The notes under the pieces are model-generated. The model ran no database searches, was not told the origin of the DNA, and was given only the letters and a program-made list of their open reading frames with translations. A DNA stretch of 64,000 nt, from the NCBI GenBank assembly GCA_937889595.1, contig CALAOR010000078.1, forward strand, positions 1-64,000. Direction: 5' to 3'. This document shows, one piece after another, positions 2,313-17,036 of this stretch (positions within the stretch are counted from its first letter, which is position 1; each line of letters starts with the position of its first letter). Source of the stretch: an uncultured bacterium (GTDB lineage: Bacteria > Oederibacteriota > PGYV01 > Palsa-1178). The position numbers and the translations under genes are program-made.

Positions 2313-4511
2313 ATGATAAAAAAACGCCATACCGTAAAAATTCACAGCGGCAGGACTGCAGGCATTACAGACAAAAAAAACTCCCCCGGCGCGCCGTTCA
2401 AACAGGAATATTTCATTGGTTTTTACCGGCTGGCCTTCCTAATGCTGTCCGTTGTTTTCTCCCTCGCGGCTGCGCGCCAGCCTTTCCTTTATAAAGCCCT
2501 TACATACATATACGGCGCCCTGCACCTTCCACTTGAAGTTATATACGCGCAAAACGGCTACGAGATATTATTCCCCGCGTATTTTTTCATCAATATCCTC
2601 CTGGCGTCCATAAGCGCCTTTTTTTTACTTTACTTTTGCGGAGGCAGTTACGATGATTATAGCGGGTCGTTCATCAAACCCGGAACCGGGCGCTTAAAGG
2701 AACGGCCGCCTTTCATATTTTTCATACTTTCGATACTTGTATATATGATAATCCTCAAGCTTCACCTGACAAACAAAATGCATTTTTTCCAGCTTGTCCT
2801 ATCCGCGGTCTTTTTCTGCATGGTACTTTACTATGCACATGAGAAGGACAGGCTCACCCACAGCGGCATATCCGTAAAAGATCTCCTGATGAAATACGAG
2901 CTGCCTGTTATCTTTCTTTTCTGCGCCGTATTCATTATTATATACGCCTTTGACCTTGATTCATGGAAATATTCCTATATCGGCGACGACGAGCTGTCTT
3001 TTTGGGACTATAGCAATATAATAAGGAATTTAAACTCCATACCGAACCCGTTTTCCGGAAAAGGTGTTTTCCAGTATCATCCCGTGCTTTCATCGCTCTG
3101 GCAGTCTCTTTTCATGAAATTCGGGGGGTACAATTCATTTGCATGGAAACTCAGCTCTGCGGTAATTCCCGCCCTTGCTTTTGTCCCTCTTTATTTGTGG
3201 ACTTTGCTGGTATTCGGCAGGCGGGCCGCTGTTTTCACATCAATAAGTTTTGTTTTCTCCCAGGGAGTGATGGCGTTCGGGCACCTGGGATATAATAATG
3301 TGCAGTCGCTTCTGCCTTTCACGCTCTCACTGCTTTTCTGCGAACTTGCCTTGAGAAAAAACTCGCTTGTTTTTGTCTGCCTCTGCGCTTTTTCAGCGGC
3401 CCTGGGCTGGAATACTTTTTACAGTGCCAGGCTCGCGTGCGCAGCCGTCGCCCTCTATTACGTGATATCGCCATACAGGAAGAACCTGTCTTTTTCCAAA
3501 CTTTCCTTCGGCATTATGCTTTTTATTTCCTGTATCCTTTTTATTTTCATGGAACCCGGGGCTGTAAGCGATATGATGAACCAGACAAGCGCCAAAATAG
3601 GCTCCTTCCCGGCCGGGATGCCGAAAATTATCGCGCTGTCGATGAATTTCACGCACTCGCTGTTCACGTTCATGTTCCTGCCGCATGAAAGCCATATAAC
3701 GGTCATAAGCCTGATGGATTATGTTTCCTGCGCAGGCATAGTAATATCCATTGTATGGATGTTTTCTTCGCTGAAATCGGACTGGAGGGCAAGGCTTATC
3801 CTTTCTTTTTTCCTGCTGTTTATATTCGTTATAGGCACCATATCACAGTACGCAAATCCCCCCATTACCAGGATATTCTTTTTATCCATAATCTTTTCAA
3901 TAATGGCGGGTGTAGGCTGGTCAAGGGCTTCGGGTATAGTTTCCGCTGGAAAAAACAGCGCCGTGCTCAAAACTGTGTTCATATCCCTGTTGGCCGCGCT
4001 ATGCGCCATTACCGCTCTTTACAGGTTTTATGCGGCTAATCCGTTCCAGTACTGGTATCTAAGGCAGGCTTATTTTATCGAGTTCATACAGCACTATGCA
4101 AAGGGCGGCAATTTTATCGTAGTGGACACGGCCTCAAAACAGGCCGCGAGTTTCAGGCTTCCTTATGAAATAAACAGGCTTTGCGCGGGCACGGAGCTTG
4201 TCACTTATGCTGATCTTGAAAAAAACCTTGTTTCAGGAAAATACATTGGGAAAACAATAGCCATAAACGGAAGCGACCTCACAGCAAAAGAAACCCTGAA
4301 AAAATATTCCCTGGACAGGCATACCATCAGGGATGCATGGTCCGGCACCATGGTCTATTATCTTTACAGCCTTAAAGATGAAAATTATTATAAAGTTTTC
4401 AGTGATATTGTCTTGAAAGGGAAAACAAACGCGCCTGCGCCTGCAGACAAATCAACAGATACGGAAAGCGGGTATAAATTAATCCCGTGGAAAACCATTG
4501 CCCGGCTTTAA
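2313..4511 (+). CDS. GT-C family membrane glycosyltransferase-like protein
   Basis: A 732-residue polytopic membrane protein with about a dozen hydrophobic segments. Around residues 221-229 an acidic loop, YIGDDELSF, sits just after a transmembrane segment and is followed by a stretch (about 230-330) that resembles ArnT/PMT-type GT-C glycosyltransferases, including an FQYHPVL motif and the LGYNN segment. Enzymes of this class move a sugar from a polyprenyl-phosphate donor to an acceptor on the periplasmic side. The last ~200 residues form a soluble, probably periplasmic domain. It is one of four GT-C-like proteins within 11 kb, but is the only one on the plus strand. An AAGGG lies about 13 nt ahead of the ATG. 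The acceptor and donor cannot be told from sequence. Confidence 0.7.
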   Translation: MIKKRHTVKIHSGRTAGITDKKNSPGAPFKQEYFIGFYRLAFLMLSVVFSLAAARQPFLYKALTYIYGALHLPLEVIYAQNGYEILFPAYFFINILLASISAFFLLYFCGGSYDDYSGSFIKPGTGRLKERPPFIFFILSILVYMIILKLHLTNKMHFFQLVLSAVFFCMVLYYAHEKDRLTHSGISVKDLLMKYELPVIFLFCAVFIIIYAFDLDSWKYSYIGDDELSFWDYSNIIRNLNSIPNPFSGKGVFQYHPVLSSLWQSLFMKFGGYNSFAWKLSSAVIPALAFVPLYLWTLLVFGRRAAVFTSISFVFSQGVMAFGHLGYNNVQSLLPFTLSLLFCELALRKNSLVFVCLCAFSAALGWNTFYSARLACAAVALYYVISPYRKNLSFSKLSFGIMLFISCILFIFMEPGAVSDMMNQTSAKIGSFPAGMPKIIALSMNFTHSLFTFMFLPHESHITVISLMDYVSCAGIVISIVWMFSSLKSDWRARLILSFFLLFIFVIGTISQYANPPITRIFFLSIIFSIMAGVGWSRASGIVSAGKNSAVLKTVFISLLAALCAITALYRFYAANPFQYWYLRQAYFIEFIQHYAKGGNFIVVDTASKQAASFRLPYEINRLCAGTELVTYADLEKNLVSGKYIGKTIAINGSDLTAKETLKKYSLDRHTIRDAWSGTMVYYLYSLKDENYYKVFSDIVLKGKTNAPAPADKSTDTESGYKLIPWKTIARL

Positions 4512-4527: not shown

Positions 4528-5565
4528 CTAAAACAGCGGCTTTATCTTTACGACCATATTTTTAAACATCTCGGTTATATAAAGGTTGTCCTCTTTATCC
4601 ACGGCTATACCCAGAGGATTTACAAATAAAGGCTCGTTATTAACGCTTTTCTTTATGGTTCCCATGTATTTAAAAGATTTATCGTTTATATCATATACGG
4701 CTATTTCATTTGTTTTCTGGGACACGGCGTACAGCCTGTCGCGCGAATCTATTGCTATCATGGGCCAGCCGCCATTATTTGTTTTCCAGGCTTTAACCTT
4801 AAACTGAGCCAGGGGCAACAGGTCGGATGAAAAAACCTGTATCCTAGCGTTGCCTGAATCCGCGGCAAACAGCCTTCCTTTTGAATCAATAGCAAGCCCG
4901 AAAACCTCAAGGAACTCTCCCGCTGATTTTCCCCGGCCCCCGGCCGGGTTGGCCGTGGCATTGCCCTGCGCGTCCAGCCTGTGCAGTTTGCTTAAGCCCG
5001 TGTCGGCCACATAAACCATCCCTGCCTTTGCCGCTATAACTGTCCTCGGCCTGTAAAATGATCTATTAATTTCCGATTTATACTTTCCGTCGGCGTCGAA
5101 TTTCTGCACCCTGCTGTTGGCAGCGTCGGCGGCGTATACGTTCCCGTCCGTATCAATTGCCAGTCCTGACACTTCATTAAACTGACCGGGTTGGTCTCCT
5201 GTCTTTCCCCAGGAAAGCACGGGGGTCCATTCCCTGTCCGCAGCTTCCGGCAGTTTCATTTTATGTATCATATTTGCGTCAAGCGACGCCACATATATAT
5301 ATGAATTGTCGGGTGAAAGCGCTATGCCGCACAGGCTGCCCGCTTTCTTCACTTTATCGCCGGAAAAACCCCATTCCCCGATTTTTTCTGCGTTTATCTG
5401 TTTTACATCCGGCGCCGGTTTAATATCCGACAACACCTTCACACTGCCTATTATTACGACAACCGCGGCAAACATTATCATTAATATGTCCGCCCTTTTG
5501 CCTTTTGGTCCGGCCGTCTTTGCCTTTTTGGTTTTCATCCCGTTCTTTTTCATGATTTTCGCCAT
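4528..5565 (-). CDS. Membrane-anchored NHL-repeat beta-propeller protein (copy 2)
   Basis: A 345-residue protein. A very basic N-terminus (about 25 residues, many K) is followed by one transmembrane segment (about residues 25-46, LMIMFAAVVVIIGS) and then a propeller of about six NHL blades with the recurring pattern G-(L/I)-A-(I/V)-D-x-x-(G/D)-(N/R)-(L/V)-Y-x-(A/T)-D. By charge the propeller should face the periplasm. AGGAGG lies 5 nt before the ATG. It is clearly paralogous along its whole length to the protein at 7814-8848, and each copy directly follows a paralogous GT-C membrane protein, so the two proteins of a pair probably act together. NHL propellers usually bind proteins or glycans. 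No enzymatic residues are evident. Confidence 0.85.
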   Translation of the reverse strand: MAKIMKKNGMKTKKAKTAGPKGKRADILMIMFAAVVVIIGSVKVLSDIKPAPDVKQINAEKIGEWGFSGDKVKKAGSLCGIALSPDNSYIYVASLDANMIHKMKLPEAADREWTPVLSWGKTGDQPGQFNEVSGLAIDTDGNVYAADAANSRVQKFDADGKYKSEINRSFYRPRTVIAAKAGMVYVADTGLSKLHRLDAQGNATANPAGGRGKSAGEFLEVFGLAIDSKGRLFAADSGNARIQVFSSDLLPLAQFKVKAWKTNNGGWPMIAIDSRDRLYAVSQKTNEIAVYDINDKSFKYMGTIKKSVNNEPLFVNPLGIAVDKEDNLYITEMFKNMVVKIKPLF

Positions 5566-5613
5566 ATATTCCTCCTGTTGGTTTATTTTTATGGAAATTA
5601 ATCAAACCGCTCT

Positions 5614-7605
5614 TTATTTTTGCGCAGAGCCGTTGACAGCCGATTTTCTGTAAACACAAAGAATATTGTTTTTTTCAGCGTGTTCATCATTGGAAAAAAC
5701 GTCAAGCAGGCTGCCTATGGCTTTCTTTTCATCCACTATTATATAATAGCCTTTATTCAGCAGGCTGTCGAGGAAAACCGTCATATCTTTTTTATACAGC
5801 CAGGCATTGAAAGGCTGATAATAACCGATTGGATCGTAATTTCCGTAAAAATAGTATAAAAAACCCCTGGTATTGCATAGAAAATACACATTTTTTGAAT
5901 TATTGGTAAGCCAGTTTACGGCGGACAGATCCACTTCCTGTTTCCCGCTTATTGTATACTCATGTCTTTTTATGGCGCTAATCTGCAATCCGACTTTTTT
6001 TAATATCCTGCCCGAATAAGATGCCGCTGCCAGGCCGAGAAAAATTATCGGAACGGCCCAGGTTATTACCTTCAATGCCAGCCTGTACCGGGGCGTTGCG
6101 CGTTTATCCTCAAGCTTAAGGAAAACAACGTCAAGCAGGACAAAAAACACCCAGAGCAAAACCGCTGATATGGCAATCATATTGTAATCCTGGCTCCTGC
6201 CAAAATAATAAATAGAGCTGCCTATTGCCAGAAAAACCAGGAAGAACGCCGTATTAAAATATTTTTCCGGTATAATCTTCCGCATCGAGTAAAGCAGATA
6301 CACCAGGCTTCCAAAAATAACCGGCATAAACCAGTAAAAAGAATGCCTGTCAATGGGAAGAAAACCAAATCCCGCTTTCCTGTATATCCCGGCTCCCTCC
6401 AGTCCGGCTTTGCCGAATACAAATGAACCAAGCAAATAGGACGCGATTATTATGGAAAAATTTTTCCAATTGAGTTTCAAATACTTAAAGAACGCATTTT
6501 TAAGCGTTTCGGGATTAAACCCGCTTTTCAGGGAATTATCCGTAACATCTATCGCAATAAGGACGCAGATAACTTCCGCGTATGAAAGCAGGTATATGAT
6601 GCCGAAAGTTTTCGCGAAGAAAACCAGAAAGGCAAGATATACAGCGAGGAAAAATGAAAATATACCGCGGTAGTAGGCCAAAAGCATGGCTATGAACCAC
6701 AGGTCAAGCCTGAGAGGGGTTGCCTGAAAAAGCGCCTGCGGGTCGACCCAGAAAGCGTAAAATCTCAGTATTACCATGGACAAAAGCAAAAATGCCGGCA
6801 ATTTTTTGTCGTGAAAGAAACGTTTTGAGAAAATATAAGAACCGGCAAAGAGCAGATATACCGAGAACTGCCCGAGTTTCTGCAGGTCAAAATAATTCAT
6901 CCCCAGTTTCATCCATAATGCCGCGATAAGCGACAACAGAAAATCATACAGAAAGTATATCCCGGAAAGCTTGAACCCTTTCAGTATTTTCAGGGCGGGA
7001 TTCAGGATATATTCATAGTCACCGAGAGAAAACGGGCCTGTAGCGACAAAACATACCGGGACAAGAGCCAGGATCACCGTTATATCCATAATGCTTTCGG
7101 CAAGCCGGCTCTTAAGCGCTATGGAATTCAGGCCCACAGGTACGGCAAAAACTATGAGATATAACAAAAAATGATAAAATGTGAAATTCTTTATGTCCGT
7201 CATTTGCCTTTCAGGCGGAGAAAAACCGACCGCGGCAAAGTAAAGGCATGCCGCGGCAAAAAAAACAAATAACAATATATTGCGCAGTTTTGTGTGTTTT
7301 ATCACGTTATATATATATATCAGCGCAAAAGACAGGGCCGCATTTATCAACATAATGCCGTACAGGAAATATACCTGAAGCCCGTTGCGCGGTTCCAGCC
7401 ATCCTCTGGCCCATTCCACATAATAAGTGTCAAAGGGTTCATAATGGACGTTGAAGGACCATATGAAACCGGAAAACCTGAAAAACAGCAGGTAAAAAAT
7501 ACAACTGACAAAAGCTGATATAAAAACCGACGCCAATATTCCACCGGATTTATTCTTGTCCGGCGCGCTGTTATTCTTTATCTTATTTATTTTCCTACCC
7601 TCCAT
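5614..7605 (-). CDS. GT-C-like polytopic membrane protein (copy 2 of the module)
   Basis: A 663-residue protein with about twelve hydrophobic helices and a ~110-residue soluble C-terminal domain. It is paralogous to the protein at 8918-10873. Shared landmarks include the loop DTYYVEWA after the first helix, LxALVPVCFVA, the acidic GDYEYILNPALKILKG loop near residue 195, TPLRLDLWF near 300, and a C-terminal GYY(I/L)V(D/A)(D/E)(E/K)K motif. The loop after the first helix and the general build fit the GT-C glycosyltransferase fold, but I see no clear catalytic DD or DE pair, so enzymatic activity is unproven. It lies 48 bp upstream of its NHL partner and is probably cotranscribed with it. Confidence 0.65.
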   Translation of the reverse strand: MEGRKINKIKNNSAPDKNKSGGILASVFISAFVSCIFYLLFFRFSGFIWSFNVHYEPFDTYYVEWARGWLEPRNGLQVYFLYGIMLINAALSFALIYIYNVIKHTKLRNILLFVFFAAACLYFAAVGFSPPERQMTDIKNFTFYHFLLYLIVFAVPVGLNSIALKSRLAESIMDITVILALVPVCFVATGPFSLGDYEYILNPALKILKGFKLSGIYFLYDFLLSLIAALWMKLGMNYFDLQKLGQFSVYLLFAGSYIFSKRFFHDKKLPAFLLLSMVILRFYAFWVDPQALFQATPLRLDLWFIAMLLAYYRGIFSFFLAVYLAFLVFFAKTFGIIYLLSYAEVICVLIAIDVTDNSLKSGFNPETLKNAFFKYLKLNWKNFSIIIASYLLGSFVFGKAGLEGAGIYRKAGFGFLPIDRHSFYWFMPVIFGSLVYLLYSMRKIIPEKYFNTAFFLVFLAIGSSIYYFGRSQDYNMIAISAVLLWVFFVLLDVVFLKLEDKRATPRYRLALKVITWAVPIIFLGLAAASYSGRILKKVGLQISAIKRHEYTISGKQEVDLSAVNWLTNNSKNVYFLCNTRGFLYYFYGNYDPIGYYQPFNAWLYKKDMTVFLDSLLNKGYYIIVDEKKAIGSLLDVFSNDEHAEKNNILCVYRKSAVNGSAQK

Positions 7606-7813
7606 CGGTCCATCTTACCCGCTTTTTCAATAAACTACCCCGCAGGGTATTAAACCCTGCATTACATACAAGAGCCGCAACCTGAAGGTTGCGCCTACAT
7701 AATCAAATACCAACCGCTTATATCTTGCTTGCCCGTGTAGGCGCAACCTTTATGTTGCGGCCCTAGTTCTAACGCAGCAAGCTGCGGTAAATTTTACGCG
7801 TATATTATTAAAT
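7606..7813. repeat. REP-like cluster: three hairpins and an inverted REP pair
   Basis: This 208-bp gap between the two duplicated modules is almost filled with palindromes. There is a GCAGGGT/ACCCTGC hairpin (7642-7660), an inverted pair of 25-bp REP units (7675-7699 and 7736-7760, each with a GCAACC...GGTTGC stem and a TAGGCG tail, two mismatches between them), and a GCAGC-AA-GCTGC hairpin (about 7774-7786). The same 25-bp unit recurs at 16917-17036. Confidence 0.8.
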
Positions 7814-8848
7814 TTAAAAAACAGGCCTTATTTTCAACACTTTATTTTTTGTCGGTTCAGTTATGTAAATATTGTCAAGCCCGTCTATTGCAATGCCTGC
7901 CGGGTGTGTAAAGAGCGGATTATTATTGGCATCGTTCCTGATCGTGCCGATATATTTATTATTGTTTTTTGTATTGTAGACAAGTATCTCCTGGGTATCG
8001 GACGATACCACATACAGTCTGTCCTGGGAGTCAACAGCAAGCAAGCCGCTCTGCGATGCATTTACATTGAAATGCGCCTGTGATATAAGATCCTGCGAAA
8101 AAACCTCGATTTTTTTAAGCAGGCCGTCGGATACATATATCCTTCCTGTTGAATCTTCAGCAATGCCGTATGCCTGATAAAACTGCCCCCGCCCTTTTCC
8201 CCAGAAACCGGCAGGTTCCCCGATTTTGTTGCCCGCCTGATCGAACTTCCATATCCTGTTCATACCCGTGTCTGCAATGTATATCATGCCTTTCCTGCCG
8301 GCAAATACGTTCCTCGTCCTATAGAATCCGTATTTTGGATAATCAATCAAGAACTTAAATTTTGCGTTTTCGTCAAATACCTGTATCCTGCTGTTCACCG
8401 CGTCTGCTATATATATATTGCCGTTTTTGTCCACTGATATGCCGGAAGGCTCGTCGAATTTTCCCGGAGTCCCGCCTTTCCCGCCCCAGGCATGCGCCTG
8501 TTTCCAATTTTCGCCCGGCTTTACAGGCAGTTTGTATTTGTATATCGTATCTGTGCTGAGTGACGCTATATATAGGAAGGCGTTATCCGGAGAAACAGCT
8601 GCTCCCGTCGGCCCTGTCATGGCGTTTTTGCCTGTTTCAGGCCCCCATTCGGCTATTTTGTCGGTTTTAATAAGCTTTACTGTTGGTGTAAATTTGATGA
8701 CCGGCGCCAGCATTACAAACCCTATTATCACAACCACTGTTGTAAGCGCTATCATGCTTATATCGTACTTCTTCTCAGCTGTTTTTATTTCAGTTTTTAC
8801 CGCATTTTTAACAGCCTTTCCGCCGCTTTTTGCCTGTCTTTTTCCCAT
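7814..8848 (-). CDS. Membrane-anchored NHL-repeat beta-propeller protein (copy 1)
   Basis: A 344-residue paralogue of the protein at 4528-5565 with the same build: lysine-rich N-terminus, one transmembrane helix (about residues 30-50), then about six NHL blades to the C-terminus. Good blade examples are GISVDKNGNIYIADAVNSRI and, at the end, GIAIDGLDNIYITEPTKNK. The ATG is preceded by AGGAGG. It sits 69 bp downstream of the GT-C-like gene at 8918-10873. The propeller is predicted to be periplasmic and most likely binds either its membrane partner or the product that partner makes. The assignment to the NHL family is firm. The role is inferred from the conserved pairing only. Confidence 0.85.
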   Translation of the reverse strand: MGKRQAKSGGKAVKNAVKTEIKTAEKKYDISMIALTTVVVIIGFVMLAPVIKFTPTVKLIKTDKIAEWGPETGKNAMTGPTGAAVSPDNAFLYIASLSTDTIYKYKLPVKPGENWKQAHAWGGKGGTPGKFDEPSGISVDKNGNIYIADAVNSRIQVFDENAKFKFLIDYPKYGFYRTRNVFAGRKGMIYIADTGMNRIWKFDQAGNKIGEPAGFWGKGRGQFYQAYGIAEDSTGRIYVSDGLLKKIEVFSQDLISQAHFNVNASQSGLLAVDSQDRLYVVSSDTQEILVYNTKNNNKYIGTIRNDANNNPLFTHPAGIAIDGLDNIYITEPTKNKVLKIRPVF

Positions 8849-8917
8849 AAATTTCCTCCTGTTTGTTTTTTCATATTGCGCCTTATTAAAATATGATATA
8901 ACATTATAATTTAATAA

Positions 8918-10873
8918 TCAATGCCTTTTCCTGTAAATGCAGATCATGGAATTTTTTTCTTTTCGCGTATCAAATATCAGTGAATCAAACAAGTTTCCCA
9001 GTGATTTTTCATCATCGGCAACCAGATAATATCCCTTACTAAGAAGGCCGTTCAAAAATACGGCCAGATCCTTTTTATATAACCAGGCAGTAAACGGCGA
9101 AAAGTATCCCAAAGGATCATATCGTCCGTAATAATAATATAGAAAATCATTTTGATGCGTTAAAAAATAAACTTTTTCCGAATTGCCGGTCAGCTCCTTT
9201 ACAGCGGCGATATCGACCGAATCTTTATCATAGGAATACATCACTTTGTGGTTTTTTAATGTCGCGAGCTGCAGTACAACTTTGTGTTTTATTTCGCCGG
9301 AATAATAAACAGCGACGAGGGATATAAATAAAGCCGGAACAACCCATGCAGCCAGATCAATATATTTTGTTTGTTTTCCGGGCTTATGCCGTTCTCTTAA
9401 GTATATTAATACCACATCGAGCAGGACAAACAGAACCCACAGATATATCCGCGCGATATTCAGCAGATTGTTTTCATAGCTCCTGCCGAAAAAATACAGG
9501 GAATTTCCAACAGTCAATATGATCAGGAAAACAATTGCATTGAAATATTTCCCGGTGACGCTCTTTTTTATTTCGAACAGCGCGTATGTAAGCAATGATA
9601 ATATTACCGGGATATACCAAAAAAATGAGGATCTTAAAATGGGAAGAAAGCCTATCCCGACCGTAACAAATGCGCCGGCAGATTCCAGCCCTGCTTTCCC
9701 AAAAATAACGACATTCACGCAATAAGCCGCGGCTATTATCACCGCATTTTTATAATATAATTTCAGGCAGTCCCTGATCCCGGTTAAAAATAATCCGGCG
9801 CTCCAGCCTTTTTCTGATGCTTTTTCGATCAGTCCAGCAGCAAAAAGGATAAAAACAGTTTCCAGATAAGCAAGCAAATATATCATGCCGAAGCTTTTCG
9901 AAAATATAAGCAAAAAACCCAGGTAAAAAGCGAGGAACATGGAGGAAATCCCGTAAAAATACGCCAGTATAAAGGCCCCAAACCACAGGTCAAGCCTTAA
10001 AGGGGTCATTTGCGCAAGATTTTGAACATCATAAAAGCACAACAGCACCATGGAAAAAACCAGAAAAACCGGCATCTTCTTATCATAAAAAATATGACGG
10101 CCAAAGAAATATGTCCCCAAATAGAACAGGTACAGGGAGCTCATGCCTATTACCTGAAAATAGTTAAAATTTATTCCCGTCTTCATAAGGGCGGCGGCGA
10201 TAATGGAAATCAACGCATCATATTGAAAATAAATCTCTTTAAGGGGTATCCCCTTTATTATTTTTACTGCCGGCTCCAGGATATAACCATAGTCAAAGAT
10301 AATATAACGCATAACCGGCACAAAACATACGGGGATCAGCAATAATGTTACCAAAATATCAGTGATATTCTTTAAACGCTCATTTATTCCGGACAAAAAA
10401 CACAGTACCAGGGGGATTAAAACGATCATAAGGAAAAACACGGGGTCATAATGCGAAAAACCAGCGATCGTGTTCCTTGGCGGATTGAATCCTATTGTCC
10501 TAAAATATACTATTGATTCGACCAAAAATATCAGGAAAATAAAATAGTAATTTCTTATATCCCTGATCCGGTCCAATATTTTTATCAGTATAAAAGAAAA
10601 TAAAACATCGATAAACGTCATGATATAAAGCACATACAACTCTATACCGTCATGCTCGTTCAGAAACGACTTTGACCACTCCACGTAATATGTATCTATG
10701 GGATAAAGCCTGAAATTAAGGGACCATATAAAAGCCGAGTAATGAAAAAATACAATATAAGCCGCATAACTTACGACGGCAGAAATACATATAGCCGCAA
10801 GAACGCCGGATTTTCTGCCCTCAATTAAAGGATAACCGGCATTCAGGGTTTTTCCATTCTTCCTGTTTTTCAT
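8918..10873 (-). CDS. GT-C-like polytopic membrane protein (copy 1 of the module)
   Basis: A 651-residue membrane protein with about twelve hydrophobic segments and a ~110-residue soluble C-terminal tail, paralogous to 5614-7605. Shared features include IDTYYVEWSKSFL after the first helix, LLIPVCFVP, the FDYGYILEPAVKIIKG loop, MTPLRLDLWF, and SKGYYLVADDEKSLGN near the end. Divergence is clearly visible, so the duplication is not recent. AGGAGA precedes the ATG. The neighbours (a PA14-bearing GT-C protein upstream and an NHL propeller downstream) suggest a role in building or modifying a surface polymer. I cannot name a substrate, and the protein could also be a flippase or polymerase rather than a transferase. 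Confidence 0.65.
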   Translation of the reverse strand: MKNRKNGKTLNAGYPLIEGRKSGVLAAICISAVVSYAAYIVFFHYSAFIWSLNFRLYPIDTYYVEWSKSFLNEHDGIELYVLYIMTFIDVLFSFILIKILDRIRDIRNYYFIFLIFLVESIVYFRTIGFNPPRNTIAGFSHYDPVFFLMIVLIPLVLCFLSGINERLKNITDILVTLLLIPVCFVPVMRYIIFDYGYILEPAVKIIKGIPLKEIYFQYDALISIIAAALMKTGINFNYFQVIGMSSLYLFYLGTYFFGRHIFYDKKMPVFLVFSMVLLCFYDVQNLAQMTPLRLDLWFGAFILAYFYGISSMFLAFYLGFLLIFSKSFGMIYLLAYLETVFILFAAGLIEKASEKGWSAGLFLTGIRDCLKLYYKNAVIIAAAYCVNVVIFGKAGLESAGAFVTVGIGFLPILRSSFFWYIPVILSLLTYALFEIKKSVTGKYFNAIVFLIILTVGNSLYFFGRSYENNLLNIARIYLWVLFVLLDVVLIYLRERHKPGKQTKYIDLAAWVVPALFISLVAVYYSGEIKHKVVLQLATLKNHKVMYSYDKDSVDIAAVKELTGNSEKVYFLTHQNDFLYYYYGRYDPLGYFSPFTAWLYKKDLAVFLNGLLSKGYYLVADDEKSLGNLFDSLIFDTRKEKNSMICIYRKRH

Positions 10874-10951: not shown

Positions 10952-13114
10952 TCATGGATACAGCACATTGCACGGCACAAGCGCATTCACCCCTTTGGGT
11001 GGGGTCCAGTGCAGTTCCATTTTACCGAACATCCTGTCCTGGGTGTAGAGGATATTCAGGGTATGAAACCCTTTGCCAAGATGGACCACCGCGTCCGGCG
11101 GTTTGGCGCCTTTGGCAGTACCGTTGTTTACAAATACTTTTTTATTGTCTATATTTATCTCCGAGTGACCGTATGAGTCTGTGGTAAAGGCATACATGCC
11201 GTCCCTGTCTATTTTGATCCTTCCGTTCCAGTCGCATGAAAATGCGCCGAATGAAACTTCCAAAAGCCCCACAGGCACTGTCCTGGTCCAGTCGGGTTTT
11301 CCCGTCCAATCCTGTGTTTTGAAACGGCGCATTATAAGTCCGTTTACATGCTTTTTTGCGGCCAATTTTTCTATCTCGCTGTACGGCACCTCATAGGCAA
11401 AACAATACATGCTTTGCGAATTGTATTTATTGTAAAACGGCACGAATTTTCCGCCCGGATAAAGCACTTTAAGCACGGCATCGACGAGCGGCCTGTACTC
11501 CGGGTTGAATAAATAAACATAATTAAGCCTGCCGTCGGGCTTTATGGGTATTGAATCCTGCATATTGAACCAGTCATAATAATTGCCTATTTCTTTGGCG
11601 TATATAAAATTGAAAGTGTTCAGTGAATACGCCTGAAAGGAGGATATGGCCCTCCAGTTATTTCCAAGCGCCTTGTAATACTCCGCCACATTACAGGCGT
11701 CCGTTGTAAAATCCAGCCAGCAGGAGGGGTTCTTTGCCTGCTTTTCGAAATAAAGGTTGAAATTATTTGCCGTTATAAAGATAAAAGACGCCCCGAATAA
11801 CGCCGCAAAAACACCCCTGATTATCCTTGAATTCCATGCGTCTTTAATTGACATGAAAAACCTCTGCATGAAGATCACGGCAAAAAGTATGACGGCGGGT
11901 ATAACCATGATGACCCTTAAACTCTGCGGGGCTTCAGCTGTAAAAAAACCGGGCAAAAGGAATATAAAGAACATTGAGACGAGGAAAAACAGCATGGGGT
12001 TAAAAATCCTGCTTATGGCCCATCCAAAACCCAGGAACGCGAAAACGCCTGTAAAAAAATCAAGCTCGGGCTGCCACGGGATATTATGCCTGGCGTCCCA
12101 GTCGCCCCTGTAGTTGAACATCATCATGGTATCCGCCACGTTTTTTGCAATTGCCTGCGTCAGGGTTTTTCCGTGGAACCACGTGTCAAATGTGGTCCTG
12201 TCAAAAATACTCACCTTATTCTGCCTGCCTGTGAACTCGGCCTGATTGGTGAGCATAAATATGCCCATAGGCAGGAAAACCACGGCAGCCACTATGGCCG
12301 CAACAGCAATCTTTTTTATTTTATTCTTAAAGAAAACCCTGTCCTTAAAGAAAATGTACACGCAAAACAGGAAAAGCCACACAGGTATGAGCCTGGCTGC
12401 CTGATAGGTGTACTGGGAAAGGCCCGTGGTAAGGCCGAGAGCTATAAAATCAAACCATTTCCCCTCCTTATAAACCCTGTAAGCAAAATAGAAAACAAGG
12501 ACGAAAACAAACACGGCAAATACGGAGTGGTACCCTATCCTGCTGAAATTTACGTGCCATCTCATGACCGCCAGCAGGAAAGCTCCGGCAAGGGCCATCC
12601 TGGCCCCGAAAACACTCCTTATGAAAAAATATAAAGCCGGCACTGTAAGTATCCCGAATATTGCGGAAGTCATCCTTATCTGCGTCCCGCCTATACCCAA
12701 AACTTTGAACACAACCGCTATAAAATATATGAACATGGAGGTGTTATGCGTATATAACGGCAGCTTGCCCTCTATTATGCCCAGCGCGTCAAGCCCGTTT
12801 AAGGCTTCATCGTCATGGAGCCCGGCCGGTATTTCGTTTATCCTGTAGAGCCTGAAAAATATTGCCAGCAAAAGGATCGCGGAAAACAGGATTATTTCCA
12901 GTTTAAGGTTAAGCTTTTCAGGCTTTATCTCCCCCGTATTTTTCCTGTCCGCATATATGAGGACTATAACGCCGAAAATAAGAAAAAACAGCCCTGTGAC
13001 AGGATCATGTTTGATATATATATAATATTGCCCGATGATCCCGCTTATTAAAGCAAAAAGCATAAACACAAATGAATGTGGATCTTTTCCCGCAATAACG
13101 CGTTTTCCCGCCAA
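10952..13114 (-). CDS. PMT/ArnT-like GT-C glycosyltransferase with C-terminal PA14 domain
   Basis: A 720-residue protein. Residues ~1-450 hold the membrane helices of a GT-C transferase. The first large loop carries YRINEIPAGLHDDEALNGLDAL, in which the HDDE acidic cluster (about residue 100) is the expected catalytic and metal region of PMT/ArnT enzymes. The last ~110 residues resemble a PA14 domain (a short beta domain often binding sugars), with FSCDWNGRIKIDRDGMYAFT and LGKGFHTLNILYTQDR. Residues 450-600 are soluble. The start is a TTG at 13112-13114 with GGAGG six bases ahead. A good promoter lies at 13165-13193. It is the first gene of the minus-strand glycan cluster and the most convincing transferase in it. 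Confidence 0.8.
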   Translation of the reverse strand: MAGKRVIAGKDPHSFVFMLFALISGIIGQYYIYIKHDPVTGLFFLIFGVIVLIYADRKNTGEIKPEKLNLKLEIILFSAILLLAIFFRLYRINEIPAGLHDDEALNGLDALGIIEGKLPLYTHNTSMFIYFIAVVFKVLGIGGTQIRMTSAIFGILTVPALYFFIRSVFGARMALAGAFLLAVMRWHVNFSRIGYHSVFAVFVFVLVFYFAYRVYKEGKWFDFIALGLTTGLSQYTYQAARLIPVWLFLFCVYIFFKDRVFFKNKIKKIAVAAIVAAVVFLPMGIFMLTNQAEFTGRQNKVSIFDRTTFDTWFHGKTLTQAIAKNVADTMMMFNYRGDWDARHNIPWQPELDFFTGVFAFLGFGWAISRIFNPMLFFLVSMFFIFLLPGFFTAEAPQSLRVIMVIPAVILFAVIFMQRFFMSIKDAWNSRIIRGVFAALFGASFIFITANNFNLYFEKQAKNPSCWLDFTTDACNVAEYYKALGNNWRAISSFQAYSLNTFNFIYAKEIGNYYDWFNMQDSIPIKPDGRLNYVYLFNPEYRPLVDAVLKVLYPGGKFVPFYNKYNSQSMYCFAYEVPYSEIEKLAAKKHVNGLIMRRFKTQDWTGKPDWTRTVPVGLLEVSFGAFSCDWNGRIKIDRDGMYAFTTDSYGHSEINIDNKKVFVNNGTAKGAKPPDAVVHLGKGFHTLNILYTQDRMFGKMELHWTPPKGVNALVPCNVLYP

Positions 13115-13164: not shown

Positions 13165-13193
13165 ATTATACAATTCTTTCCCCGTATTTTCAA
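13165..13193 (-). promoter_or_regulatory. Sigma-70-like promoter of the glycan operon
   Basis: On the minus strand TTGAAA (13188-13193), a 17-bp spacer and TATAAT (13165-13170), about 50 bp ahead of the TTG start at 13114. Confidence 0.7.
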
Positions 13194-16916: not shown

Positions 16917-17036
16917 TGTAGGCGCAACCTTCAGGTTGCGGGTGTTGTTTGAAATGATGCAAGCCGGTTTATCTGATGCCTGAAATAAAAATAACAGCGT
17001 CAGAACAAATGCCGCAACCTGAAGGTTGCGCCTACA
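16917..17036. repeat. Inverted REP pair (REPIN-like)
   Basis: Two identical 25-bp units in inverted orientation at 16917-16941 and 17012-17036 (each with a GCAACC...GGTTGC stem and a GTAGGCG end) with about 70 bp between. The same unit occurs as a pair at 7675-7760, with the arms facing the other way. Confidence 0.85.

Follow-up and report, generated by a model that had tools for sequence, protein, structure and literature searches.

A duplicated module of a putative GT-C membrane protein and an NHL propeller, and its relation to a phylum-wide surface-glycan locus

Described systems and layout of the duplicated module

Mycobacterial GT-C enzymes have periplasmic partners, amongst them those of AftB, which works together with FecB and the membrane-associated beta-propeller MMAR_1667/Rv3035, as judged by co-immunoprecipitation (PMC12802301). 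Among archaea, Haloarcula hispanica has a putative hexose-P-Dol flippase, Agl23, and the purified protein moves M5GN2-PP-Dol in proteoliposomes (PMC11182771). The locus described here, a pairing of an orphan membrane protein (M) and an NHL propeller, resembles the AftB complex in that a GT-C enzyme would be combined with a periplasmic, membrane-associated beta-propeller partner; however, the AftB partners are a predicted eight-bladed WD40-type propeller, not an NHL propeller, and an SBP-like lipoprotein, and the enzyme belongs to another GT-C family. It likewise resembles the loci encoding Agl23-type (TIGR03663) and TIGR03662 proteins, in which a GT-C-type polytopic protein adjoins or is fused to an NHL propeller, and whose second propeller, NHL2, is the source of the propellers described here. 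In contrast to these loci, the M proteins are not TIGR03663 members and show no profile similarity to them, and no YYY, Wzx or GT2 genes occur in their block. A literature search on TIGR03663, DUF2298, NHL-flippase pairing and Agl23-NHL association or fusion returned nothing, most subscription papers lying outside the search. GT-C machines partnered by a propeller are a known kind. An earlier note on this DNA, which knew of no described system with such a pairing, was nearly right as far as NHL propellers are concerned, although AftB with FecB and its propeller constitutes a related precedent (PMC12802301).

Within the window, that is the whole analysed stretch of 64,000 nucleotides, the module and its flanks comprise the following features:

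2313..4511, plus strand: PMT_2 GT-C of 732 aa, convergent with NHLb (PMT_2 5.9e-08 at residues 256-408)
4528..5565, minus strand: NHLb, 345 aa, NHLa paralogue
5614..7605, minus strand: M2, 663 aa, M1 paralogue
7668..7767, no strand: REP pair between the two modules, two inverted units
7814..8848, minus strand: NHLa, 344 aa, one membrane helix and a six-bladed NHL propeller
8918..10873, minus strand: M1, 651 aa, orphan polytopic membrane protein, probably a divergent GT-C glycosyltransferase
10952..13114, minus strand: PMT_2 GT-C of 720 aa with C-terminal PA14 domain (PMT_2 5.1e-15, PA14 6.4e-10)
13165..13193, minus strand: sigma-70-like promoter match, TTGAAA-17-TATAAT (11/12), lying 50 nt ahead of the 720-aa gene, a consensus match only

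The two M-NHL pairs were confirmed to be paralogous gene by gene: M1 and M2 share 44% identity over 656 aa, and NHLa and NHLb 45% over 342 aa (E 1e-99), both over the full lengths, with identical gene order and orientation and all four open reading frames on the minus strand. The intergenic gaps amount to 69 nt between M1 and NHLa, 208 nt between NHLa and M2, and 48 nt between M2 and NHLb. The second of these contains the REP cluster that the earlier note had placed between the modules, and its two inverted units (7677-7699 and 7736-7758) are exact pattern matches with 0 expected by chance; a further REP pair lies at 16917-17036. The stretches around and upstream of the NHL starts of both modules can be aligned (37 nt, 73%) at a spacing of 3284, which fits a single tandem duplication of the whole M-NHL module. 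Among the genomes searched, the duplicated module was seen in the source genome only. Retention of both pairs, from which it had been argued that they work as a unit, therefore amounts to a single event in the evolution of one genome and does not suffice to show such a unit.

On either side of the module lies a gene for a genuine PMT_2 protein. The 720-aa gene immediately precedes M1, on the same strand and with a gap of 78 nt, and is probably the first gene of a larger unit containing the M-NHL modules; its product scores 2.1e-10 against TIGR03663, under the cut-off. Elsewhere in the genome, four very large PMT_2 GT-C proteins (931-1165 aa) are encoded inside 15 kb (contig C76:203761-217958). 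Two further reading frames of the window were recorded, one of (V/S)GTAV-type tandem peptide repeats at 12-356, which may be mere repeat DNA, and a MORN_2-repeat protein at 1196-2140 that carries a signal of lipoprotein type (LFFSC) and is similar to Leptospira LIC20035.

Relation of the M proteins to GT-C enzymes

Simple hydropathy assigns 12-15 hydrophobic segments to M1 and M2, in keeping with at least eight membrane helices. Neither protein matched a Pfam or NCBIfam family above cut-off, nor any GT-C family in Pfam even at E<=1; searches against PDB sequences and against TIGR03663 (cut-off 126.25 bits) gave no match, direct hhalign comparison with Agl23 reached 0.1%, and comparison with either single GT-C of the window was negative. 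When the M profile was aligned by hhalign to the 19 PMT_2 proteins of the same genome, a weak match was obtained over residues 185-275 (P 0.0016, probability 15.8%), whose score of 37.1 exceeds all 60 block shuffles (maximum 32.0) as well as the reversed profile (22.0). This match places D194 on the aspartate of the D-E motif. Both D194 and R293-x-D295 are invariant in the four M homologues, and the latter motif, about 100 residues past D194, resembles by eye R208/D213 of Agl23, which lie about 95 residues past D117/E118. As in the 732-aa PMT_2 protein, where about five hydrophobic segments precede the PMT_2 domain, a similar number precedes D194 in M1 and M2 by hydropathy. M resembles PMT_2/ArnT-like GT-C enzymes (PF13231) in its many transmembrane helices, its C-terminal soluble part and, as the weak match suggests, an external Asp loop, but it does not match PF13231, and the profile similarity is confined to the first loop. 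An AlphaFold model of M1, computed with the four homologues, was poor (pLDDT 44). The profile match and the invariant residues are suggestive of M1 and M2 being divergent GT-C proteins; the label GT-C-like given to them earlier agrees with this weak match at the putative catalytic-Asp loop, whereas the family libraries return no match for it.

The M family has four members found, namely M1, M2, a homologue in G003, a genome of the same family as the source genome (34% identity; L024/L076), and another encoded by an Elusimicrobia MAG (33-34%; L077). The profile search for homologues covered 384 genomes and revealed nothing real beyond these; only the known copy was found in five genomes from the phylum of the Elusimicrobia member, and none in viral contigs. 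Weak matches in G135 and G283 were dismissed as chance, the reading frames looking by eye like a CDP-alcohol phosphatidyltransferase and a tyrosine recombinase. In the Elusimicrobia MAG, the M gene is located among glycosyltransferase genes, directly downstream of a GT2 gene resembling PgfS/ArnC (7.9e-69, 2e-44), which are lipid-phosphate sugar transferases. M genes are found among or next to glycan genes both in the window and in the Elusimicrobia MAG, but not in G003. No NHL gene was found within about 10 kb on either side of M in G003 (L076) or within the 5.6- and 2.8-kb flanks of the Elusimicrobia gene (L077), so that 0 of 2 independent M loci in outside genomes have an NHL neighbour and an obligate M-NHL system is not indicated. 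Relatives with the membrane protein and no NHL neighbour, which the earlier note had named as evidence against its proposal, are hence what G003 and the Elusimicrobia MAG present. As the family is tiny and both outside members are without NHL, a single origin of the M-NHL pairing in this genome, followed by its duplication, is probable.

The NHL propellers and their association with GT-C genes

Both propellers match Pfam NHL strongly, with E-values of 4.6e-23 for NHLa and 2.8e-20 for NHLb (80.5 and 71.7 bits, respectively; cut-off 20). As modelled by AlphaFold, NHLa forms a six-bladed propeller (pLDDT about 90) following a single N-terminal helix, and its nearest structures are TRIM-family NHL domains (Thin NHL domain, Foldseek E 9.7e-22), designed Pizza proteins and PknD. 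The NHL sensor domain of PknD (1rwi), matched by sequence and by structure, is likewise a membrane-anchored, extracytoplasmic six-bladed NHL propeller; in contrast, NHLa and NHLb carry no kinase domain and have the anchor at the N-terminus and the propeller at the C-terminus. Each of the two proteins has one hydrophobic segment after a K/R-rich start, which bears out the earlier reading of the propellers as membrane anchored and would place them outside the inner membrane. NHL repeats are widespread in this genome (59 matches, many in unrelated proteins). Near the end of contig C36, at about 13.5-18.1 kb, lies a 3497-aa open frame with many NHL repeats.

A third close copy in the source genome, NHL2 of contig C16, is 48% identical to NHLa and belongs to an operon (L023:4446-16635) of the order YYY, Agl23, NHL1, NHL2, Wzx, GT2, GT2, radical SAM, GT2, in which the YYY protein (DUF2298) scores 6e-154 with TIGR03662 and the Agl23-type GT-C 5e-82 with TIGR03663. 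At least 15 relatives have this operon, complete or partial, and NHL2 orthologues were found in 24 of the 45 genomes of the phylum, nearly always in the context of a YYY/Agl23/NHL/Wzx operon. NHL1 precedes NHL2 at almost all loci where the contig reaches far enough, and NHL1 in turn is preceded by an Agl23-type protein in at least 15 relatives and by a YYY protein in two genomes of family f12. In phylogenetic trees, NHLa and NHLb are sisters (support 100/97) and fall inside the family's NHL2 branch (94/95, slightly under threshold), that is with the operon NHL2 and not with NHL1. When a long-branch NHL sequence from G012 was added, support for the sister relationship fell to 83/29. The G012 gene (L062:2423-3373) encodes a divergent NHL2-like propeller that clusters with NHLa and NHLb on a long branch, and on its 3.4-kb contig it adjoins genes that by eye look LemA-like and M48-protease-like. 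Judged by sequence, NHLa and NHLb are copies of NHL2 from a phylum-wide surface-glycan locus that were set beside M and then duplicated together with it.

Outside the phylum, Agl23 and an NHL propeller are encoded in one open frame in three genomes:

L135:4783-7248 (G150): Agl23 with C-terminal NHL fusion, Agl23 at residues 2-486 and NHL at 552-814
L136:4474-7890 (G109): Agl23 with C-terminal NHL fusion, Agl23 at 28-664 and NHL at 845-1130
L134:2657-6187 (G380): Agl23 with C-terminal NHL fusion, Agl23 at 36-772 and NHL at 888-1168

A frame in G250 (L114), of the same genus as G109, also contains both. Gene fusion is classical evidence for joint action. An NHL propeller was found beside or within 19 of the 30 best-scoring TIGR03663 loci, which stem mostly from the source phylum and hence do not give an unbiased rate; for the PA14 GT-C family the figure was 2 of 30 loci, by which this family was ruled out as the usual NHL partner. 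At the TIGR03663 loci outside the phylum, the association was present in three of ten, all of them fusions and from two genera. The neighbourhood search proposed in the earlier note thus gave a divided answer: the two M loci found outside this genome have no NHL gene in the flanks covered, whereas TIGR03663 loci often have one. Its idea that GT-C and NHL proteins work jointly gains from the operon origin and the three Agl23-NHL fusions, but not from M itself.

Possible roles of the M-NHL module

Our proposal, held with about even confidence, is that both modules branched off in a single lineage from the phylum-wide surface-glycan locus, NHL2 copies being re-paired with M as GT-C partner subunits. 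As a divergent GT-C, M would take a sugar from a polyprenyl-phosphate carrier on the outer side of the inner membrane by means of its Asp194 and R-x-D loops. The propeller, tethered by its N-terminal helix, would cover the outer face of M and either scaffold the enzyme or present an acceptor, be it a glycan or a protein. The use of NHL1 and NHL2 by Agl23-type GT-C proteins appears to be similar, and in some other bacteria the two kinds of protein are joined in a single polypeptide; a second M-NHL pair would add another acceptor or linkage specificity. By analogy with Agl23 (PMC11182771) and the AftB-FecB-propeller complex (PMC12802301), the propeller most likely serves on the outer face as a subunit for docking or for presenting the acceptor. 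Counting against the proposal are the two outside relatives with M and no NHL, the missing library match, the poor M1 model, the hhalign result with Agl23 and the fall in tree support on addition of G012.

The absence of NHL beside the two outside M genes could also mean that M and NHL are neighbours without being partners, M being a self-sufficient enzyme and NHL an independent periplasmic glycan-binding or sensor protein of a shared surface-polysaccharide operon, both kept by block duplication. We consider this rather unlikely. That the pairing is confined to one genome and one duplication, and that NHL propellers occur in so many unrelated proteins there, would be readily accommodated; however, both NHL copies are intact beside M and have diverged to the same extent as their M neighbours, and the family from which they come goes specifically with Agl23 GT-C genes, for which fusion to NHL is seen elsewhere. 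M might also be unrelated to GT-C altogether, for example a transporter or polymerase whose resemblance to PMT_2 arose by chance, as the absence of any Pfam GT-C match, the uninformative model and the low hhalign probability would allow. The score above all shuffles, located on the diagnostic loop, and the glycan genes in or around the M loci of the window and of the Elusimicrobia MAG, though not of G003, render this improbable. The slimmest chance is given to M moving lipid-linked sugars as a flippase or translocation factor, the role put forward for archaeal Agl23, while NHL would be the periplasmic subunit of M. The H. hispanica transport data and the conserved partnership of TIGR03663 with NHL speak for it, but there is no detectable similarity between M and Agl23, the parent operon already contains a separate Wzx flippase, and M has kept a catalytic-type Asp loop.

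On the preferred reading, in which the propellers serve M as a GT-C enzyme, the module connects the Agl23/YYY glycan locus with an orphan membrane-protein family and with a candidate phylum that has received little study; the gene fusions are evidence for a direct joint action of NHL propellers and GT-C proteins. Tentatively, GT-C machines for lipid-linked sugars may in several phyla have membrane-anchored NHL propellers as a general, interchangeable periplasmic subunit, present as operon partner, as fused domain or, as here, re-paired with a new and unrecognised GT-C family formed by M1 and M2. This raises the testable question of what service a periplasmic propeller renders to a GT-C enzyme or a lipid-sugar flippase, the same question that is posed by AftB in mycobacteria.
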